Of a DNA stretch of 64,000 nucleotides, positions 1,268-9,437 are shown piece by piece. The stretch spans positions 1-64,000 of the forward strand of contig SZXV01000011.1 in NCBI GenBank assembly GCA_005862225.1, given 5' to 3'. How positions within the stretch are numbered: position 1 is the stretch's first letter; the number at the start of each line of letters is the position of its first letter. The DNA is from Chlorobium sp. GTDB lineage: Bacteria > Bacteroidota > Chlorobiia > Chlorobiales > Chlorobiaceae. The position numbers and the translations under genes are program-made. The notes beneath the pieces are model-generated. The model saw only the letters and a program-made list of their open reading frames with translations, did not search any database and was not told the origin of the DNA.

Positions 1268-1631
1268 TAAAATCTTGCTTCTTGAAAAACTGGTGCAGAT
1301 TGAGAAGGCATTAGGAACAATAGAACGGAGATTTTCATCGATCAAAACGGTAGACGATTTTCTTGATAGCAATCAAGGAATGGATATGCTTGATGGAATC
1401 GCAATGATGCTTATCGCTGTCGGAGAGAACTTTAAAACAATCGACAGCCACACAAAAGGCGCTCTTTTCGATAAGTACCCTCATATTAACTGCTCGGGAG
1501 TAAAAGGTTTGCGTGACATCCTTGCTCATTAATACTTCAATATTGACGCTGAACAGATTTTCCAAATTTGCTGTGATAATCTCGGCGATCTTCACGATAC
1601 AGTAAACAAAATGATCAAGAATTTGAACTGA
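1260..1631 (+). pseudogene. HEPN toxin interrupted by an in-frame stop
   Basis: The frame opening at ATG 1260 encodes a HEPN (DUF86/HepT-like) protein: helical N-terminus, then the catalytic RxxxxH element seen as RDILAH (residues 86-91). A TAA at 1530-1532 follows the His directly. Reading on in the same frame gives YFNIDAEQIFQICCDNLGDL..MIKNLN and a second stop at 1629-1631. This is the normal HEPN tail (consensus RxxxxHxYF.ID). A single base change therefore appears to cut the protein after 91 of about 123 residues. The catalytic pair remains but the last helix is lost, so the toxin is probably inactive. A sequencing error at 1530 is the alternative. Confidence 0.75.
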
Positions 1632-1789
1632 TCTCCACTTCTGTTTCGCAAGACGACCACTTCCGTCATTTCGCATTTTCTTCAGGGCGGGGTAAAGGTT
1701 GGTATGATGAGATAGAAAGACCCGTTGTTTCTCTCAAAAGAAATCAGTATTGATAAAAGGCATGATCAACTTTTATTAAGGGAACACTC

Positions 1790-2032
1790 TTGGGAAAAAC
1801 AAAGATTGCAATAACTGTTGATGCCGCCCCCTTGATAAAGATTGACCAACAGGTGCGAAATCACATTTTCCTCAATCGCACTCAGGCGATACAGGATGCA
1901 TTGTATGAAAAGATTGGGCGCATTGAGCGGTCACGACTTGCTGAAGAGTTTGCAAAACTTGATCCGATTGAAGAATGCAAACCGGCAGAAGATGGTTTTG
2001 CCGGGGAGATAGAGACATGGCCAGAATACTGA
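1790..2032 (+). CDS. Ribbon-helix-helix antitoxin (MazE/CopG type)
   Basis: An 80-residue protein starting at TTG 1790, preceded by AAGGGA about six bases upstream. The N-terminus (KIAITVDAAPLIKIDQQVRNHIFLNRTQAIQDAL) has the beta strand plus two helices of a ribbon-helix-helix DNA-binding domain. The acidic C-terminus ending in ETWPEY is typical of the toxin-binding tail of antitoxins. It overlaps by 16 bases the start of a MazF-like gene with a large deletion, so this is an antitoxin left without a working toxin. It probably once repressed its own promoter. Confidence 0.75.
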   Translation: MGKTKIAITVDAAPLIKIDQQVRNHIFLNRTQAIQDALYEKIGRIERSRLAEEFAKLDPIEECKPAEDGFAGEIETWPEY

Positions 2033-2192
2033 GAGGCGAAATACGATATGCCGATTTGCCAAAACCGTCATGGGTTAAAATGAGCCAAATCAGAACCCTC
2101 TCTATCAAACAAATTGACAAAAACTTGGCGCTGTTTCCGCCAAAGAAATGGATTTGGTTATTGAAGGGCTTAACAAAATTCTTGGCAGATAA
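2017..2192 (+). pseudogene. MazF-like toxin with internal deletion and frameshift
   Basis: ATG 2017 starts MARILRGEIRYADL, the classic N-terminus of MazF/PemK endoribonucleases. The next residues are LPKPSWVKMSQIRTLSIKQI, which in MazF lies some 50-60 residues later. The central part, including most of the RNA-binding core, has therefore been removed in frame. Near 2130 the frame shifts: the remaining C-terminus (SAKEMDLVIEGLNKILGR) is in the +1 frame and ends at TAA 2190-2192. The product cannot be an active RNase. The partner antitoxin upstream is intact. Confidence 0.8.
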
Positions 2193-2292
2193 CCCGCTTT
2201 CATGTCATCTGCCAAGAAACATGGTTTCAAGCTTTGCCGTTACGTATGAACTTTAATCTCTTTGTCCAAGCCCTCACGATTCTCAAAAAAAG

Positions 2293-3618
2293 TTATTTCT
2301 GGATTATATCATTTCGTCCAAGGCGCAAGACCAATTCTCCGAGACTGTCTTTGATTTCTGCTGTGTTTCCTGCGGTTGGAATAACAAACCCTGACTGGCT
2401 GTCAGACTCGGTACCCAGTGAAGCAAACCCAACTTTCAGACGCACCTCACTGTCGCGCACATCAAGACCTTTCAGGTTGGTACGCAGCTTGCCATAAAAA
2501 TCATCGAGTAAATTGGCGACCCGTTCCGGGGCAACGAAAGCAACTTTTTTTGCACTGGCCATTTGTTGCATCAGGGAACCATTATCGGCCTCCAGCTTTT
2601 CAAGTTTCTCTGAAAGTGTTGCTTTAGAAAGTTCTCCATCGGCTTTGGCCTGGGCAACTGCTTTTTCTACCGTTTCATTCAACTTGAGTGTTGCGGTTTT
2701 TGCCTGCGCTTCAAATGTTCTGGCATCAAGGGTTAACGAATCAAGCAGCTCCTGCTGTATCCTGTTCTCTTCAATTAACTTGCCTATGCGATCATCAATC
2801 TTTTCTGTTTGAGCATTTTTAGCTCTCTCGTCAAGTAATGCTTTGAGCAAAACGTTCATAACCGGAACAGGCTTTGCCTCGACGTCACCAACTGCTGGCA
2901 CAACCTGTCGCAGTGCATCAATTGATGCTGCAACAAGTTCATCTGAACCCTGGCGTTCGAGCTGGAGATCATTCACCGTTTTCCTTAGTTCATCTCGCTC
3001 TTTGTTCCACAACAACACATTTTCATCACTCTGCTTGCGGAGAATATCAAGCTCGCCACGGCTGCTTTTTAATGTTTGCTGAAGTATTTCGATGTCAGCA
3101 AGCGCCTTCATCTGGACGCTCTGTTCACGCTTGATGACTATATCAAGTTCCTGGCGGGATATCTCAACTGCTTTTTGTAAATCGGCTATCTGAACACTAC
3201 TTTCCTTTGCATCGGCCTGTGCCTTGAGTGAAATAGTATTGACTTCCTGGCGGGATAGTTCAACGCTTTTTTGCAGCTCAGCTATCTGGAGACTGCTCGC
3301 CTTTGCATCGGCCTGCGCCTTCAGTGAAACTGTATTAAGTTCATTTCGTGAGGCTTCGACCGTTTTCTGTAAATCGGCCATCTGCGCACTGCTCGCTTTT
3401 GCATCAGCCTGTGCCTTCAATGAAACTGTATTAAGTTCCTGACGAGATGCGTCGACTGTTTTTTGCAGCTCGGTAATACGTGTACTGCTCGCCTGAGCAT
3501 CTGTCTCTGCCTTCAGTGAAACAGCATTGAGATCTTCACGAGCCTTTGCAAGCTGCGTCTGCATGAGAACACTTTCTTTCTGCAGCCTGGTGACGAGTAG
3601 ATTATCTGGTAGCGGCAT
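2293..3618 (-). CDS. Coiled-coil protein with 32-residue repeats
   Basis: A 441-residue protein I do not recognise. Residues about 19-178 are a tandem repeat with a period of exactly 32: the motif N(A/T)(V/I)SLKA recurs at residues 31, 63, 95 and 127, with LQK(T/S/A)V..SR(Q/N)E between. Residues 160-360 continue as charged, helical, coiled-coil-like sequence. The last 80 residues (FVAPERVANLLDDFYGKLR..LRLGRNDIIQK) look like a compact domain with a beta-rich GFASLGTESDSQSGFVIP segment. There is no signal peptide or membrane segment. It is the last gene of a five-gene minus-strand cluster, 12 bases after its neighbour. A structural or scaffold role is possible, but this is inference. Confidence 0.8.
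   Translation of the reverse strand: MPLPDNLLVTRLQKESVLMQTQLAKAREDLNAVSLKAETDAQASSTRITELQKTVDASRQELNTVSLKAQADAKASSAQMADLQKTVEASRNELNTVSLKAQADAKASSLQIAELQKSVELSRQEVNTISLKAQADAKESSVQIADLQKAVEISRQELDIVIKREQSVQMKALADIEILQQTLKSSRGELDILRKQSDENVLLWNKERDELRKTVNDLQLERQGSDELVAASIDALRQVVPAVGDVEAKPVPVMNVLLKALLDERAKNAQTEKIDDRIGKLIEENRIQQELLDSLTLDARTFEAQAKTATLKLNETVEKAVAQAKADGELSKATLSEKLEKLEADNGSLMQQMASAKKVAFVAPERVANLLDDFYGKLRTNLKGLDVRDSEVRLKVGFASLGTESDSQSGFVIPTAGNTAEIKDSLGELVLRLGRNDIIQK
3087..3564 (-). repeat. Tandem 96-bp repeats in the coiled-coil gene
   Basis: Four strongly similar and one or two weaker copies of a 96-base (32-codon) unit lie head to tail inside the coiled-coil gene. The copies encode SLKAETDAQASS, SLKAQADAKASS (twice) and SLKAQADAKESS. 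The unit length is constant, and the DNA copies are similar enough to recombine, so copy number may vary between strains. Confidence 0.75.
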
Positions 3619-3630
3619 AGGTTATTAATT

Positions 3631-4104
3631 TTATTGCTTGTCTTCAAGCGTTATCGACCGCACTGTACGAGCAGCGTTATCAGTCACTTTGACCGCCCAA
3701 AGATTCATATCCCGAACATAGTTGGCCTCAATATTTAGCTTCCCTAAAATCTCCTGCAGCTTCACAACATCCTTTCTTTTTGCCACATCCGCAATAATGT
3801 CTGTTTTGGTGCGAACCGGTTCATCTGATGTGCTTTTCGCGCTATGGGACGCGACATAACGGATCGTAATGGTTGATACCGCTTCCGGAACCACACTGCC
3901 TTGAGCTGAAGCTGAAGATGATATCGGTTCGACCATCAATTTATCTCCTTCGTAACGCATTCCCACCTTAATGGAAAGTTCTGCATCCGAAAGCATCATT
4001 CCAGGCTTCATCCCGTCAGGTACTCCGATATCCTTTTGTGCTATTCCCAATGATTTTCCGGCGGCTCCCAGAAAATCGTCCAGCACTGTCTCTTGTCCAC
4101 TCAT
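3631..4104 (-). CDS. Uncharacterised protein of the 2.3-5.7 kb cluster
   Basis: A 157-residue protein starting MSGQETVLDDFLGAAG. ATG 4104 was chosen because CGGAGAA lies five bases upstream. The N-terminus is helical. The middle (LSDAELSIKVGMRYEGDKLMVEPISSS) and STITIRYVASH look beta-rich, and the C-terminal third (KLQEILGKLNIEANYVRDMNLWAVKV) is mixed alpha/beta. No signal peptide, membrane segment or catalytic motif is visible. It lies 70 bases after the second paralogue and 12 bases before the coiled-coil gene. The alternation of strands resembles its two neighbours, and all three may share a fold; I cannot name the function. Confidence 0.7.
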   Translation of the reverse strand: MSGQETVLDDFLGAAGKSLGIAQKDIGVPDGMKPGMMLSDAELSIKVGMRYEGDKLMVEPISSSASAQGSVVPEAVSTITIRYVASHSAKSTSDEPVRTKTDIIADVAKRKDVVKLQEILGKLNIEANYVRDMNLWAVKVTDNAARTVRSITLEDKQ

Positions 4105-4174
4105 GGATTCTCCGGTAGAAGAAAACAGAGGTCGGAAAACCATACGAGCCCGACCCCTGCTCTTGTTATTGTGA

Positions 4175-4690
4175 TTATCCCTTCTCTGTTGATCGAACAG
4201 GTTCCAGCCTCAATGGCATCGGCACGGGAACCAAAGTTGCAGTCACCTTTGACGTAACCTTGAGATCACGGTTAAGCTTGCGCTCAAAACGAATTCCCGC
4301 AGTGTCTGCCATCAGGGCAAAACCCTTGCTTGTCCCTGACTCAGTAATTTCTTCAGAGATTTTCAGGTCCATCTGGATCTCGATGACAGTTTGCGAAAAC
4401 TGGTAAAACGTCGGCATAACCCCCAAATCAAGCAACGAAACGCTGCGAGATGGCGCATGAAGATACTCAACGTCCCCATCTTTTGTAATGGTTTCCTGAA
4501 TACTCGGAATAATATCTACCTTCGTCTCAGCGAGCTCTTTCATCATACCTGCCGATGAACGATCAAGCGCAGCCTGGGCATCAGCCACACTTTCAGCAAC
4601 AAGCCGAATAAGATCACCGAGTGATGCCTGTTCTGATTCTTTAACCTTTGCAGAAGGCGAAAGAAGGGGTTCTCGAATAATAGATGCCAA
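4175..4690 (-). CDS. Uncharacterised protein, tandem paralogue B
   Basis: A 171-residue protein starting at TTG 4690, supported by a strong AGGAGGAGG six bases upstream. It aligns with the next gene upstream: helical N-terminus ending in LVAESVADAQAALDRSS, the shared core LGVMPTFYQFSQTVIEIQMDLK (about residues 88-109), and a proline-rich end TLVPVPMPLRLEP. The layout (helix, strand ending in PTFYQF, then amphipathic strands) faintly recalls DUF2589 proteins, but I am not sure. No membrane segment or signal peptide is seen. Gene duplication is clear; function is unknown. Confidence 0.75.
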   Translation of the reverse strand: MASIIREPLLSPSAKVKESEQASLGDLIRLVAESVADAQAALDRSSAGMMKELAETKVDIIPSIQETITKDGDVEYLHAPSRSVSLLDLGVMPTFYQFSQTVIEIQMDLKISEEITESGTSKGFALMADTAGIRFERKLNRDLKVTSKVTATLVPVPMPLRLEPVRSTEKG

Positions 4691-4721
4691 TGGCGACCTC
4701 CTCCTTAATTAATGTTAAGCG

Positions 4722-5243
4722 TTATGCTGTTGGTTTTGGTCTGTTATCGACAATAATCAGTTCAGGAGCAATACGGGCTGGCGGCGGCACAGGAACCATT
4801 TTCGTGATAAGCTTGCTTGTGCCATGCACCTCTTTGCCAAACTTACGGTTATGCGAAACATCCACATTCACAGAGGCACTCCAGCAACCAAAGCCAACTT
4901 TGGCACTTGAACTGACTTTGATGTTGGTTTCAGTAGACATGGTTGTCTTAATGTCCATCGTCACCTCAATCGTCGCCTCTGAAAACTGGTAAAATGTTGG
5001 TAACAATCCAATCTGCATCAACGACACGTCAATTGGATCTGACTGGGTATAGCTGACGGTTCCATCAGCCGCAATCGTCTGAGTCATTGCAAGCACGAGA
5101 GGTATTGTTGTGTCAGCAAGAATTTTTGCTGTTGCAACCGAATTTTCATCAAGAGCTCTCTGGGCTTCAGCAATGCCAAGTCCCAGCTTCATTACCATCT
5201 CTGGTAGTGGTACATCCAGTAATTCACGACCTACACTTGCCAT
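4722..5243 (-). CDS. Uncharacterised protein, tandem paralogue A
   Basis: A 173-residue protein with ATG 5243 preceded by AGGGGGA. It is paralogous to the gene 31 bases downstream: both have an N-terminal helix with AQ(R/A)ALD, a strand region with TI..DG.V.Y, the core GLLPTFYQFSEATIEVTMDIK, and a C-terminal VPVPPPAR. The middle is rich in small residues and beta-prone (KVSSSAKVGFGCWSASVNVDVSHNRKFGKE). It looks cytoplasmic. It may be a distant DUF2589-like protein (low confidence). It is the second gene of the unassigned cluster. Confidence 0.75.
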   Translation of the reverse strand: MASVGRELLDVPLPEMVMKLGLGIAEAQRALDENSVATAKILADTTIPLVLAMTQTIAADGTVSYTQSDPIDVSLMQIGLLPTFYQFSEATIEVTMDIKTTMSTETNIKVSSSAKVGFGCWSASVNVDVSHNRKFGKEVHGTSKLITKMVPVPPPARIAPELIIVDNRPKPTA

Positions 5244-5358
5244 AAGAGTTCCCCCTGTTTATCTTTGTTACCGGCTGACGCTGATAACGGTTAAAAGAAA
5301 AAGGACAAGACAGATAAAAGCCTAAAAACACCATTTGTAAAATAATCGGCCGGTGCTA

Positions 5359-5658
5359 CTATTGCTGGGGTGGCACTAAAGAGGCGCCAAGTGAAGCAAG
5401 CACGGCATTATATCTCTGAACATCAAGATGTACTCCGCTTACCATAAGAATACCTTTTTCTTTCTGTAAGGCCAGAGCATTGGTAAGAGTAAGGCGGGCT
5501 ATGACAGAACGACCCTTGTCAAGCCTGAAAACAACACTGCCCCCATGGGCATGTATGTTTGCGGAAGGATCTTTTTCCTGTGAAACAACAATAAAAAGAC
5601 CTTCCTGCCCCTCACTGAAAGTGACTGTTGCGCCAAAACGGTCGTAAATATCGTTCAT
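5359..5658 (-). CDS. Small uncharacterised protein, first gene of cluster
   Basis: A 99-residue protein starting MNDIYDRFGATVTFSEGQEGLFIVV. It is predicted to be beta-rich in the first two thirds, with a helix-strand ending (HLDVQRYNAVLASLGASLVPPQQ). There are no cysteines, membrane segments or signal peptide. It lies upstream of the two paralogues (116-base gap) and 96 bases downstream of the fadD-like gene, so it could start its own transcript or be read through from the biotin operon. No family recognised. Confidence 0.65.
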   Translation of the reverse strand: MNDIYDRFGATVTFSEGQEGLFIVVSQEKDPSANIHAHGGSVVFRLDKGRSVIARLTLTNALALQKEKGILMVSGVHLDVQRYNAVLASLGASLVPPQQ

Positions 5659-5705
5659 GGAAAAACCTGATTAAGGACTTGAAGAAATCCTTGGCCATTG
5701 TTAAT

Positions 5706-5734
5706 AATTTAAACAATCATGAACAACCAAACAA
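5706..5734 (-). promoter_or_regulatory. Possible promoter for the unassigned cluster
   Basis: On the minus strand, TTGTTT (5729-5734) and TAAATT (5706-5711) are 17 bases apart, about 50 bases upstream of the first cluster gene. The match to sigma-70 consensus is modest and the region is AT-rich, so this is only a candidate. Confidence 0.3.
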
Positions 5735-5754
5735 GAAAATAATGAGGTTATACT

Positions 5755-7443
5755 TCACAAGGTTTCGTTACAATGCTTTTCAACCAGTTTCCGGCGGAGG
5801 ACTTTGCCGACCGTTGATTTTGGCAGCGCCGGGGTAAATTCCACATGTTTCGGCACTTTGTATGCGGTCAAATCCTGACGACAGTGTTCGCGAAGCTCAT
5901 CAACAGTAAGCTTATGACCGGGACGCAGAACAACCCATGCCTTGACCGCTTCTCCCTGATACGGGTCAGGTACTCCGGCAACGCCCACTTCGAGTACTGC
6001 GGGATGAGTGGCTATAGCCTCTTCAACATCACGCGGCCATACCTGAAAGCCTCCGGGTTTGATAACATCTTTTTTGCGATCAACAATAAAGAGGTAACCA
6101 TCCTCATCAAGGTAGCCAAGATCACCGGTATAGAGCCAGCCTTCACGGAGAACAAGAGCTGTTTCCATCGGGTTCTGCCAGTACTCCTTCATGATCTGGG
6201 GTGCTCGCATGATAATTTCGCCCACTTCCAGAGCCCTGAGATCGTCAAAACCTGTTTCAGGATCAACAATCCTTACCTCAACATCGGGCACGGGAATGCC
6301 AACCGATCCATGCTTGTACGTCCCAAGAATCGGGGTAAAAACTGAGGCCAGCGCTGATTCTGTAAGGCTGTAGGCATCAATAATCCTGCCTCCTGTCAAC
6401 TCCTCAAATTGCCGTTTGGTTTCAAGCATGAGCGGAGCGGCGCCTGAAACACTCAGCTTCAGCGATTTCAGAATGGAGGTATCGCGTTTGACTCGGGAGT
6501 GGTTAATCAGCGCGGTAAACAGCGTCGGAACACCGGGAAGTACTGCGGCTTTCAGAGTTTTAATGGTATGCAGCAGATCGTCAAGATCCCGGGGGTTCGG
6601 CACCAGCGCAAGAGGATAACGCTCAATCAAGGCAGCGGTCATAATGCCGACCTGGGCATAGACGTGAAACAGAGGCATGTTGAGCAGGATAACATCTTTG
6701 CCTTTCTCAAGAATAACGCTGAACCAGCTTGCGATCTGCATTCCGGTCATCACCATTCCCTGATGGGTAATGACAACACATTTCGGGTTTCCGGTTGTGC
6801 CGCCCGAAAAGAGAAAAATGGCCGGATCGGTATGGCGGATCGGCACCGGCACAAATTTTACTTCTGCTTGAGCCGCAAGAAGAGTGCTCAACCAGTGGTC
6901 TCCTTTGTGCAGTTTTACCCGATGTCCATCCTTTTTTTCTTTCAGAAGGGTAAAAAGAAGAGAGTTGAGCGGTGACAGATACTCCTTGATATTGGTGACA
7001 ATAACCCGTTTCAGGCGAGAGACGGTCTGAACTTCTTTGATTTTTTTATAGAATGGAGACAAAACGATGACTGTCTCCGCACCGCATTCATTAAGGGCAT
7101 GCTCAAATTCGAGAACCGTGTAAAGAGGATTCATGGGCACGGCAATAGCCCCGGCTTTCCAGACTCCCAACTCACTGATGATCATTTGTGGTGAATTTGG
7201 CATGATCAGGGCAACCCGGTCACCAAATCCAAGACCAAGCGAGAGAAGTGCTGCGGCAAGTGCATCGCTTTGCCGTTCCAGCTCCCGGTATGAGAGTGAA
7301 GCGCCTTTGAAGGACATTGCAGAATGTTGCGGCTGCTCATTCGCACTCCTTCGGACAACATCAACCAGCGTCTCTTCCGGATAGGGGTGCAGGGAGTGAG
7401 GAACTCCCTTGTCGTAGTGCTGAATCCAGGGCTTGGCTCTCAT
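5755..7443 (-). CDS. fadD: Long-chain fatty-acid CoA ligase (FadD-like)
   Basis: A 562-residue acyl-CoA synthetase of the ANL superfamily, which activates a fatty acid to acyl-AMP and transfers it to CoA. The P-loop FLFSGGTTGNPKCVVITHQ is near residue 208. YSLTE lies in the adenylation core, and YTGDLGYLDEDGYLFIVDRKKD marks the hinge to the C-terminal lid. The catalytic lysine region is PKSTVGKVLRRKL near the C-terminus. The gene starts 18 bases after bioA and is probably the last gene of the biotin operon. Substrate is not readable from sequence. A role in fatty acid recycling is likeliest; a link to a pimeloyl or biotin-related acyl group is suggested only by position. Confidence 0.85.
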   Translation of the reverse strand: MRAKPWIQHYDKGVPHSLHPYPEETLVDVVRRSANEQPQHSAMSFKGASLSYRELERQSDALAAALLSLGLGFGDRVALIMPNSPQMIISELGVWKAGAIAVPMNPLYTVLEFEHALNECGAETVIVLSPFYKKIKEVQTVSRLKRVIVTNIKEYLSPLNSLLFTLLKEKKDGHRVKLHKGDHWLSTLLAAQAEVKFVPVPIRHTDPAIFLFSGGTTGNPKCVVITHQGMVMTGMQIASWFSVILEKGKDVILLNMPLFHVYAQVGIMTAALIERYPLALVPNPRDLDDLLHTIKTLKAAVLPGVPTLFTALINHSRVKRDTSILKSLKLSVSGAAPLMLETKRQFEELTGGRIIDAYSLTESALASVFTPILGTYKHGSVGIPVPDVEVRIVDPETGFDDLRALEVGEIIMRAPQIMKEYWQNPMETALVLREGWLYTGDLGYLDEDGYLFIVDRKKDVIKPGGFQVWPRDVEEAIATHPAVLEVGVAGVPDPYQGEAVKAWVVLRPGHKLTVDELREHCRQDLTAYKVPKHVEFTPALPKSTVGKVLRRKLVEKHCNETL

Positions 7444-7461
7444 GGCTTTTTCTGTAATAAT

Positions 7462-8748
7462 TTAGCGTATGGATTGCACAACATCGCAAACCGCAGTGGT
7501 TAATATAGAAAGTTCTTCATTGGAAATAATAAAGGGAGGCATAAGATAGACCAGTCTGCCAAAGGGGCGAACCCAGACTCCTCTATCAACAAATTGTCTC
7601 TGAATGATCTCCATAGTCACCTGATGGTGAAGTTCAACAACGCCAATCGCGCCAAGCACACGAACATCCGCAACATGGCTGAAGGAACGGCAGGGCTCAA
7701 GCCCCTTTCGAAGTTCCGCTTCAACTCGAAATACCGAGGCCTGCCAGTCATAGCTCTCAAGGAGACGAATGCTTGCGGAGGCAACGGCACAGGCCAGCGG
7801 ATTTGCCATAAAAGTCGGGCCGTGCATGAACAGCCCGGGGTTACCAGAACAGATGGTTCCGGCAACTTTCTCTGTTGTCAGCGTTGCTGCAAGGGTCATA
7901 TAGCCACCGGTCAGTGCTTTGCCGACACACATAATATCAGGAACCACATCGGCATGTTCCAAAGCAAACATTTTTCCGGTTCGCCCGAAACCGGTAGCAA
8001 TTTCGTCGAAAATCAGCAGCACGCCGTAGCTGTCGCACAACTCTCGTAATCTGGTGAGATAGGATGGAGAGTAAAAGCGCATTCCGCCAGCACCCTGCAC
8101 GACCGGCTCGATAATCACTGCTGCAATGGTGGAGTGATGCCGTTCGAGATTATGGCAAATATCGACCATATCCGCCTCGACACAGGGCTCATGAAACCGG
8201 CATGAAGGGGCTTCTGCAAAATATTGCTGCTGAATGGTCCCTTTAAAAAGAGAGTGCATACCCGTTACTGGATCACAGACTGACATGGCGGCAAAGGTGT
8301 CGCCATGATAGCCGGAATGAACCGTCAGCATCCTGTTTTTTGAGGATTTTCCGAGAGCTGCCCAGTATTGAATCGCCATTTTGATGGCAACTTCAACAGC
8401 AACAGAACCTGAATCACTGAAAAAAACTTTCTGCAGGAGATCAGGTGTCATGTCAACCAATTGTCGTGCAAGCGTGGTGGCTGGCTCATGGGTAAGACCG
8501 CCGAACATGACATGGCTCATCTTTTCAAGCTGAGAGAGCACTGCCACATTGAGTACCGGATGATTGTAACCGTGGATGGCTGCCCACCAGGATGACATGC
8601 CATCAACCAGTTTGCGACCATCTTCAAGCTGAAGAAAAACGCCATCAGCCCGCACCACGGGATAAACCGGCAATGGATTGGTCAACGAAGTATAGGGATG
8701 CCAGACATGTTGGCGGTCAAAATCGAGGTCAATAGTTTTGGTCGACAT
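7462..8748 (-). CDS. bioA: Adenosylmethionine-8-amino-7-oxononanoate aminotransferase
   Basis: A 428-residue fold-type I PLP enzyme. It transfers the amino group of S-adenosylmethionine to KAPA, giving DAPA in biotin synthesis. N-terminal HVWHPYTS and [14 protein letters not shown] are typical of Bio[18 protein letters not shown] carries the PLP-pyridine Asp, and [11 protein letters not shown] holds the Schiff-base lysine; [14 protein letters not shown] follows. Length is normal for the family. It lies 14 bases after bioD in the bir-bio operon. Confidence 0.95.
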
Positions 8749-8762
8749 AAACCGTACTATGA

Positions 8763-9437
8763 TTATAATGAAAGGCGTGAAACAGCGTCAGCGTCAAGTT
8801 TTCCATCACACAGGTCAATCACCGGCGCTGAATATCCTGATTTATTCAGATAGTGCCTGATCACCTCGCGAGTGTCATCAGCAATAAGCTTGTCAACATC
8901 CTGAAAAGAGTTGTAGACAACTGCCCGGACAGATATTCCCCGTTTCACGCAAGCCTCAAGAGAGAGCAGTGTCTGGTTGATGCTGCCAAGACGCGGACTG
9001 GTCACCAGCACAAGTCCATATCCAGTCCCTCGCACATAGTCGGCAAACAGCAGATCCGGACCAAGTGGCACCAGTAATCCACCAACTCCTTCCAGAAGCA
9101 CAAGTTCATAGCGTTTTTGAAGAAAAAGAGTAGCACGCCGGATGTGCATCAGATCAACTTCTGCGCCTTCAAGCCGGGCCGAAAGATGTGGTGAAGCCGG
9201 ATAGCGAAAAAGGTAAGGGCAGGTCAGTCCTTCATGGTCAGCCTCCTGCAATCCGATACCCATCAGGCGGCGATGTTCAAGAATATCCTCCGCAACTCCT
9301 TCGCAGCCAGTCTGGACAATTTTCTGGGTAATAACGTTTTTACCTTGCTGGAGCAGTGCCCTGGCAAGCATACCGGTCACAAAAGTTTTTCCTATGCCGG
9401 TATCAATACCGGAAATAACAAGAACTGTTCCTTTCAT
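8763..9437 (-). CDS. bioD: Dethiobiotin synthetase
   Basis: A 224-residue protein with ATG 9437, overlapping the bioC stop by four bases (ATGA), which decides the start against longer upstream readings. BioD closes the ureido ring of dethiobiotin from DAPA, CO2 and ATP. N-terminal [17 protein letters not shown] is the BioD P-loop, and [12 protein letters not shown] is the second conserved motif. [11 protein letters not shown] corresponds to the catalytic lysine region. Soluble and of normal length. Confidence 0.93.

Follow-up and report, generated by a model that had tools for sequence, protein, structure and literature searches.

A mobile, co-inherited five-gene module with distant DUF2589 relatives in Chlorobium, other bacteria and haloarchaea

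What are five closely spaced genes that match no curated family, and do they belong together at all? The question is raised by the first 64,000 nucleotides of contig SZXV01000011.1 of Chlorobium sp. (GenBank assembly GCA_005862225.1), the stretch of DNA referred to here as the window, in which an original prediction made from the letters alone had outlined five closely spaced minus-strand open reading frames (ORFs) as an acquired system. All five were found in place, and they are termed A to E in their order of transcription. It was established that A to E are linked and co-evolve as a single unit, which occurs in both bacteria and archaea and has spread horizontally. From this mobile, co-inherited five-component module we infer, at slightly less than an even chance, a biological role and products that most likely form one cytosolic heteromeric assembly. 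The genes are as follows:

5359-5658, minus strand: gene A, 99 amino acids (aa), beta-alpha-beta-beta-alpha-beta, predicted subtilisin-propeptide-like (I9-like) fold, with conserved FGA, GG and D..R motifs.
4722-5243, minus strand: gene B, 173 aa, distant DUF2589 relative, the best conserved subunit.
4175-4690, minus strand: gene C, 171 aa, TTG start, B paralogue and distant DUF2589 relative.
3631-4104, minus strand: gene D, 157 aa, conserved third component.
2293-3618, minus strand: gene E, 441 aa, with a repeat coiled coil at the N-terminus and a conserved domain of about 100 residues at the C-terminus.

The evidence for such a unit comes from the distribution of the genes. B was used as the query in a single scan of 84,980 species genomes, which returned 40 loci. 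The bacterial carriers belong to Chlorobiota, Pseudomonadota (alpha, beta and gamma), Thermodesulfobacteriota, Chloroflexota, Thermomicrobiota, Cyanobacteriota, Bacillota, Campylobacterota, Kiritimatiellota and Gemmatimonadota, and the archaeal ones are Halobacteria together with one methanonatronarchaeon; many carriers are metagenome bins, and isolates among them include Pelovirga, Sphaerotilus, Rhodoferax, Parerythrobacter, Natronomonas, Halorubrum, Salinigranum and Halobaculum. The bacterial gene order is A-B-C-D-E, with A relocated behind B at L008 and L009. Most haloarchaeal loci are ordered B-C-C'-E-A, where C' is a shorter third paralogue, and at two of them (L041 and L045) E and A precede B. 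Iterated profiles detected A in 36 of the 40 loci, E in the same number, and B and C in essentially all, the gaps in the detection of these four genes falling mostly at contig ends. The archaeal A aligned over its whole length with the bacterial A profile (97%, E-value 1.3e-10), and B is about 65% identical between Chlorobi and haloarchaea. Beyond A to E, no additional conserved neighbour was found at the loci. In Pseudanabaena (L014, 3831-7129), two further genes behind the set encode proteins with a 'LALDGSASM'-like motif, the second carrying an OmpA domain, and neither was seen at the other loci.

The five genes also diverge together. When their distance matrices were compared across the 16 complete bacterial loci, all proved congruent (Mantel r 0.50-0.90, all p=0.001), with a mean pairwise identity of 75% for B, 60% for C, 38% for D, 36% for A and 33% for E. 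Ratios of nonsynonymous to synonymous substitution (dN/dS) against the sister genome were 0.04 for A, 0.05 for B, 0.12 for C, 0.24 for D and 0.15 for E, and selection on all five is purifying. Because of these ratios, and because whole-set homologues occur in many phyla, the ORFs are not chance ones. It could be argued that five hypothetical genes merely lie side by side without any relation, since a known function is absent for all of them; however, the same set recurs over phyla and in archaea with congruent distances, and among 150 relatives A and D were confined to the three genomes that carry B and were missing wherever B was missing. This alternative is hardly credible and is already refuted by the co-occurrence data. 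Co-occurrence in other phyla, which the original prediction had named as its test, was therefore clear and extended to haloarchaea, and neither homologues that never co-occur nor clear matches to known unrelated families arose.

The acquired nature of the region was borne out by comparison with relatives, which places the island as follows:

2103-5767 (approximate extent), no strand: island; in related genomes it is missing from the stretch that separates the toxin-antitoxin region from the acyl-CoA synthetase gene.

Only three genomes of the genus carry B (48 other members were sampled in addition to the window's own). An empty site is present in L087, L088, L095 and L096, where the sequence from beyond the island begins about 0.05-0.5 kb after the acyl-CoA synthetase gene, and it follows that about 3.7 kb was inserted. 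In the window, the acyl-CoA synthetase gene (5755-7443) adjoins the island; it was considered as a module member and rejected, being a mere local insertion site that most of the searched genus members possess. The island is flanked by two toxin-antitoxin-like pairs (980-1532 and 1790-2256), the first an apparent MNT/HEPN pair; the second also occurs immediately behind the acyl-CoA synthetase gene in relatives that lack the island. In the tree of B, host phyla are interleaved: Gemmatimonadota group with Gammaproteobacteria (97% ultrafast bootstrap), Kiritimatiellota with Dehalococcoidia (98%) and, more weakly, Anaerolineae with Clostridia (87%). One homologue set is plasmid-borne (Sphaerotilus, NZ_CP035710.1). 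A phage origin was rejected, as tblastn gave no match in 50,697 phage records and no homologue was found among the viral contigs of IMG/VR. A distant match of the B fold was observed over its full length to the viral model A0A516MP19 of BFVD (E-value 1e-4, 20% identity).

The two paralogues of about 172 aa in the original prediction are B and C, which are 36% identical. Neither window protein matches PF11655 (DUF2589; curated cut-off 23 bits), nor does any other protein of the window's own genome. Nevertheless, 6 of 45 B/C members match this family (best E-value 2.7e-4), and in hhalign comparisons with 29 DUF2589 proteins B aligned at full length over 164 columns (86.9%, E-value 4.2e-6), whereas a shuffled control gave nothing; C also aligned at full length, at 34%. 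These profile comparisons show both paralogues to be distant relatives of DUF2589, lying under the curated cut-off of the family. Like this module, DUF2589 operons hold tandem paralogues in small sets of two to four genes, but those of Bacteroidota lack A, D and E, have another helical partner and, in one genus, gain a subtilisin. In that genus (L052 5076-8522, L100 5303-8751, L110 5193-8643) the operon consists of DUF2589, a related protein, a helical protein and then a subtilisin-like peptidase with an N-terminal extension, while other Bacteroidota have its first three genes only.

The model of B consists of a long helix and a long beta-hairpin, predicted with moderate confidence, and this hairpin invites a reading in which B and C act on membranes, with a long amphipathic hairpin inserting into or spanning them as beta-barrel pore proteins do. 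Residues 109-128, the predicted tip of the hairpin, are strongly amphipathic, with none of 2000 shuffles reaching their value, and the insignificant Protein Data Bank (PDB) fold matches of B include several beta-barrel pore proteins. However, such matches all have an E-value of about 0.5 or worse and a probability of 0.14 at most, the tip has a predicted local distance difference test score (pLDDT) below 50, the flanking strands are not exceptional, and a signal peptide is absent. The low-scoring pore matches were read as geometry rather than homology, and a membrane-acting role is very unlikely. The structure search with B also gave no match to a solved sheath, tube or scaffold protein.

The AlphaFold model of A has a core pLDDT of about 90 and shows beta-alpha-beta-beta-alpha-beta order. 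In Foldseek, subtilisin propeptides took all of the top 14 places among the PDB matches (probability 1.00, E-values 1.3e-3 to 1.4e-2), with a template modelling score, normalised by target length, of about 0.7-0.8 against free propeptides. A is thus modelled with a subtilisin-propeptide-like fold. At the level of sequence, neither A nor 20 homologues matched the Pfam family Inhibitor_I9, and hhalign against I9 was negative with a profile of three I9 sequences, which is too small to settle the matter. Because no sequence match exists, homology to the propeptides can only be inferred. A shares the order of elements and the fold with subtilisin propeptides, but it is a stand-alone gene without detectable sequence similarity or a linked subtilisin, and it ends in a C-terminal helix with conserved residues of its own (D, R) instead of an extended tail.

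The fold of A leads to a second reading, in which the genes form a protease-linked conflict (defence) module, with DUF2589/Trypco2-like adaptors and with A as a trans-acting factor of the propeptide type that inhibits or recruits a subtilisin or trypsin-like peptidase of the host, which an attack would release. Trypco2 (PF19631; curated cut-off 24.2 bits), the adaptor domain of MoxR-vWA ternary conflict systems, was named for its co-occurrence with trypsin-like peptidases in such systems (PMC7159879), and the link to conflict is drawn also from PMC10907252. The window proteins A to E do not match it, and the likeness consists of weak matches of single members, at best an E-value of 0.0037 for one B/C member and 0.011 among 5 of 26 members of D, all under the curated cut-off. 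The subtilisin gene that ends the DUF2589 operon of one Bacteroidota genus points the same way, as does the presence of an S8 peptidase somewhere in 17 of 19 carrier genomes. On the other hand, no S8 motif and no trypsin motif (GDSGGP/GNSGGP) occurs in any ORF of the 40 loci (L007-L046; motif test only), no MoxR, vWA or VMAP partner recurs, no PADLOC model was matched, and A has its helix where the propeptide tail would be. Additionally, two Rhodoferax carriers (L020 and L022, one of them a metagenome bin) gave no S8 match genome-wide, and an obligate trans inhibition of subtilisin by A was rejected on these two genomes, subject to the completeness of their assemblies. A is therefore not simply a subtilisin inhibitor, since no protease adjoins it and two carriers are without subtilisin, and the conflict reading is somewhat unlikely. 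On another contig of the window's own genome (G000:C4, L051), an apparent diversity-generating-retroelement locus was observed, with parts at 5376-6437, 1618-4788, 6788-8080 and 8508-9041, namely a reverse transcriptase, two large proteins that terminate in FGE/C-type-lectin-like repeats, one of which also contains a NACHT-like part, and finally a Trypco2 gene; the last rests on a Pfam match of 5e-5, and the remaining identities were read by eye.

E joins a coiled coil, whose number of repeats varies, to a conserved C-terminal domain, and the repeat-bearing 441-aa coiled-coil protein that had been predicted is confirmed by four tandem units:

3141-3528, minus strand: four 96-bp (32-aa) tandem repeats within the E coiled coil.

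There are 4.0 copies in E of the window and 6.2 in the sister genome (L007, 3419-5032), and since the two coiled coils differ by whole 96-bp units, gaining or losing repeats seems to be what alters their length. The archaeal E gains a PASTA domain and, in three of four scanned, an HHH domain as well, while in the Kiritimatiellota bin both are fused to the D homologue (L012). With PASTA and HHH on D in the Kiritimatiellota bin (L012 4112-5086) and on E in haloarchaea (L029 11502-12476; L037 11609-12883), D and E behave as if one attachment slot were common to both. The domains of D and E themselves are connected by a weak profile link (E-value 0.007), which serves as a lead only.

The PASTA domain of the archaeal E and of one bacterial D suggests ligand binding, and this bears on a third reading, in which the five proteins cooperate without a polymer in a cytosolic or cell-envelope accessory function outside conflict, such as stress or metabolite sensing, an inclusion or an organelle. 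In the sole paper found on DUF2589, Archaeoglobus genes of this family respond to growth substrate (PMC3949148), and the carriers come mostly from stratified lakes, mats, soda lakes and brines. However, this habitat pattern is an impression from record titles, made without comparison to a background, and no conserved neighbour beyond the five genes indicates a pathway. Such an accessory function is quite unlikely.

Within the window, the strong Shine-Dalgarno sequences that the original prediction had noted, one before a TTG start, were verified for B and C:

5250-5256, minus strand: Shine-Dalgarno sequence of B (AGGGGGA).
4698-4707, minus strand: Shine-Dalgarno sequence of C (AAGGAGGAGG).

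For D, orthologue alignments favour the ATG at 4104 over a start at 4143. The claim that signal peptides and membrane spans are absent held as well, as no export signal was evident in any of A to E and no 19-residue segment of them was hydrophobic enough (maximum Kyte-Doolittle value 1.41). Rfam and tRNA scans of the window were empty, promoter-like matches occurred at chance level or below, and terminator-like ones were only slightly above chance.

As regards assignment, Pfam, NCBIfam and PHROGs searches gave no significant family for any of the five window proteins, and none matched the PADLOC-DB models of known anti-phage defence systems, so that the judgement of the five as unassignable still holds against these databases. 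Borderline matches of E (e.g., Csa1, E-value 0.0075) are coiled-coil matches under the curated cut-off, and nothing significant was found when PDB sequences were searched with profiles of A, B/C and D. RefSeq labels all five homologues on the Sphaerotilus plasmid 'hypothetical protein', and the gene set was not described in the literature searched, which comprised open-licence papers only. Folds or distant families can be recognised for the parts, but the five-gene module as such appears to be undescribed; absence from the literature and databases searched is no proof of novelty.

The favoured reading of one cytosolic heteromeric assembly would assign the subunits as follows. B, the slowest-evolving, would use its long helix and beta-hairpin to build the core, as a lattice or ring, and its conservation far above that of C, D, A and E fits a subunit under constraint from many sides. 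C and D would be minor subunits, either paralogous or analogous, and E may dock into the core by its C-terminal domain, with the repeat coiled coil setting a distance or tethering the complex; in archaea, the PASTA and HHH domains of E could reach a ligand or DNA. Subtilisin propeptides are intramolecular chaperones, and therefore an assembly or adaptor role is plausible for A, which may act as an adaptor or assembly chaperone in the manner of these propeptides rather than as an obligate subtilisin inhibitor. Several points weigh against this assembly: the homology of D and E to the DUF2589/Trypco2 fold is weak (profile E-values 0.005-0.011), linked genes without contact are also expected to show correlated distances, and the model of B is only moderately confident (pLDDT 70; residues 102-136 below 50) and has no significant match to any solved PDB structure. 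Of the system that was originally predicted, the acquired island and the multi-gene set co-inherited across phyla stand, and the cytosolic location stands insofar as no export or membrane signal was detected. Judged from the patchy mobile distribution alone, the biological role is probably accessory, in conflict or stress response. More tentatively still, the genes may encode an undescribed cytosolic machine common to bacteria and haloarchaea through horizontal transfer, with B as an extremely conserved DUF2589-like core subunit, paralogues of B, a repeat coiled-coil tether whose length changes in 32-residue steps and a propeptide-fold assembly factor.

For proteins of unknown function, it is unusual that five genes without a curated family stay together in at least 10 phyla or classes of bacteria and two classes of archaea, and that one product, B, is so similar between Chlorobi and haloarchaea. 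DUF2589, a family without a known role, thereby gains a defined partner set that is open to co-expression and imaging, and a propeptide fold apart from any protease would represent a new use of that domain. If the assembly proves true, it would constitute a new class of prokaryotic supramolecular assembly.

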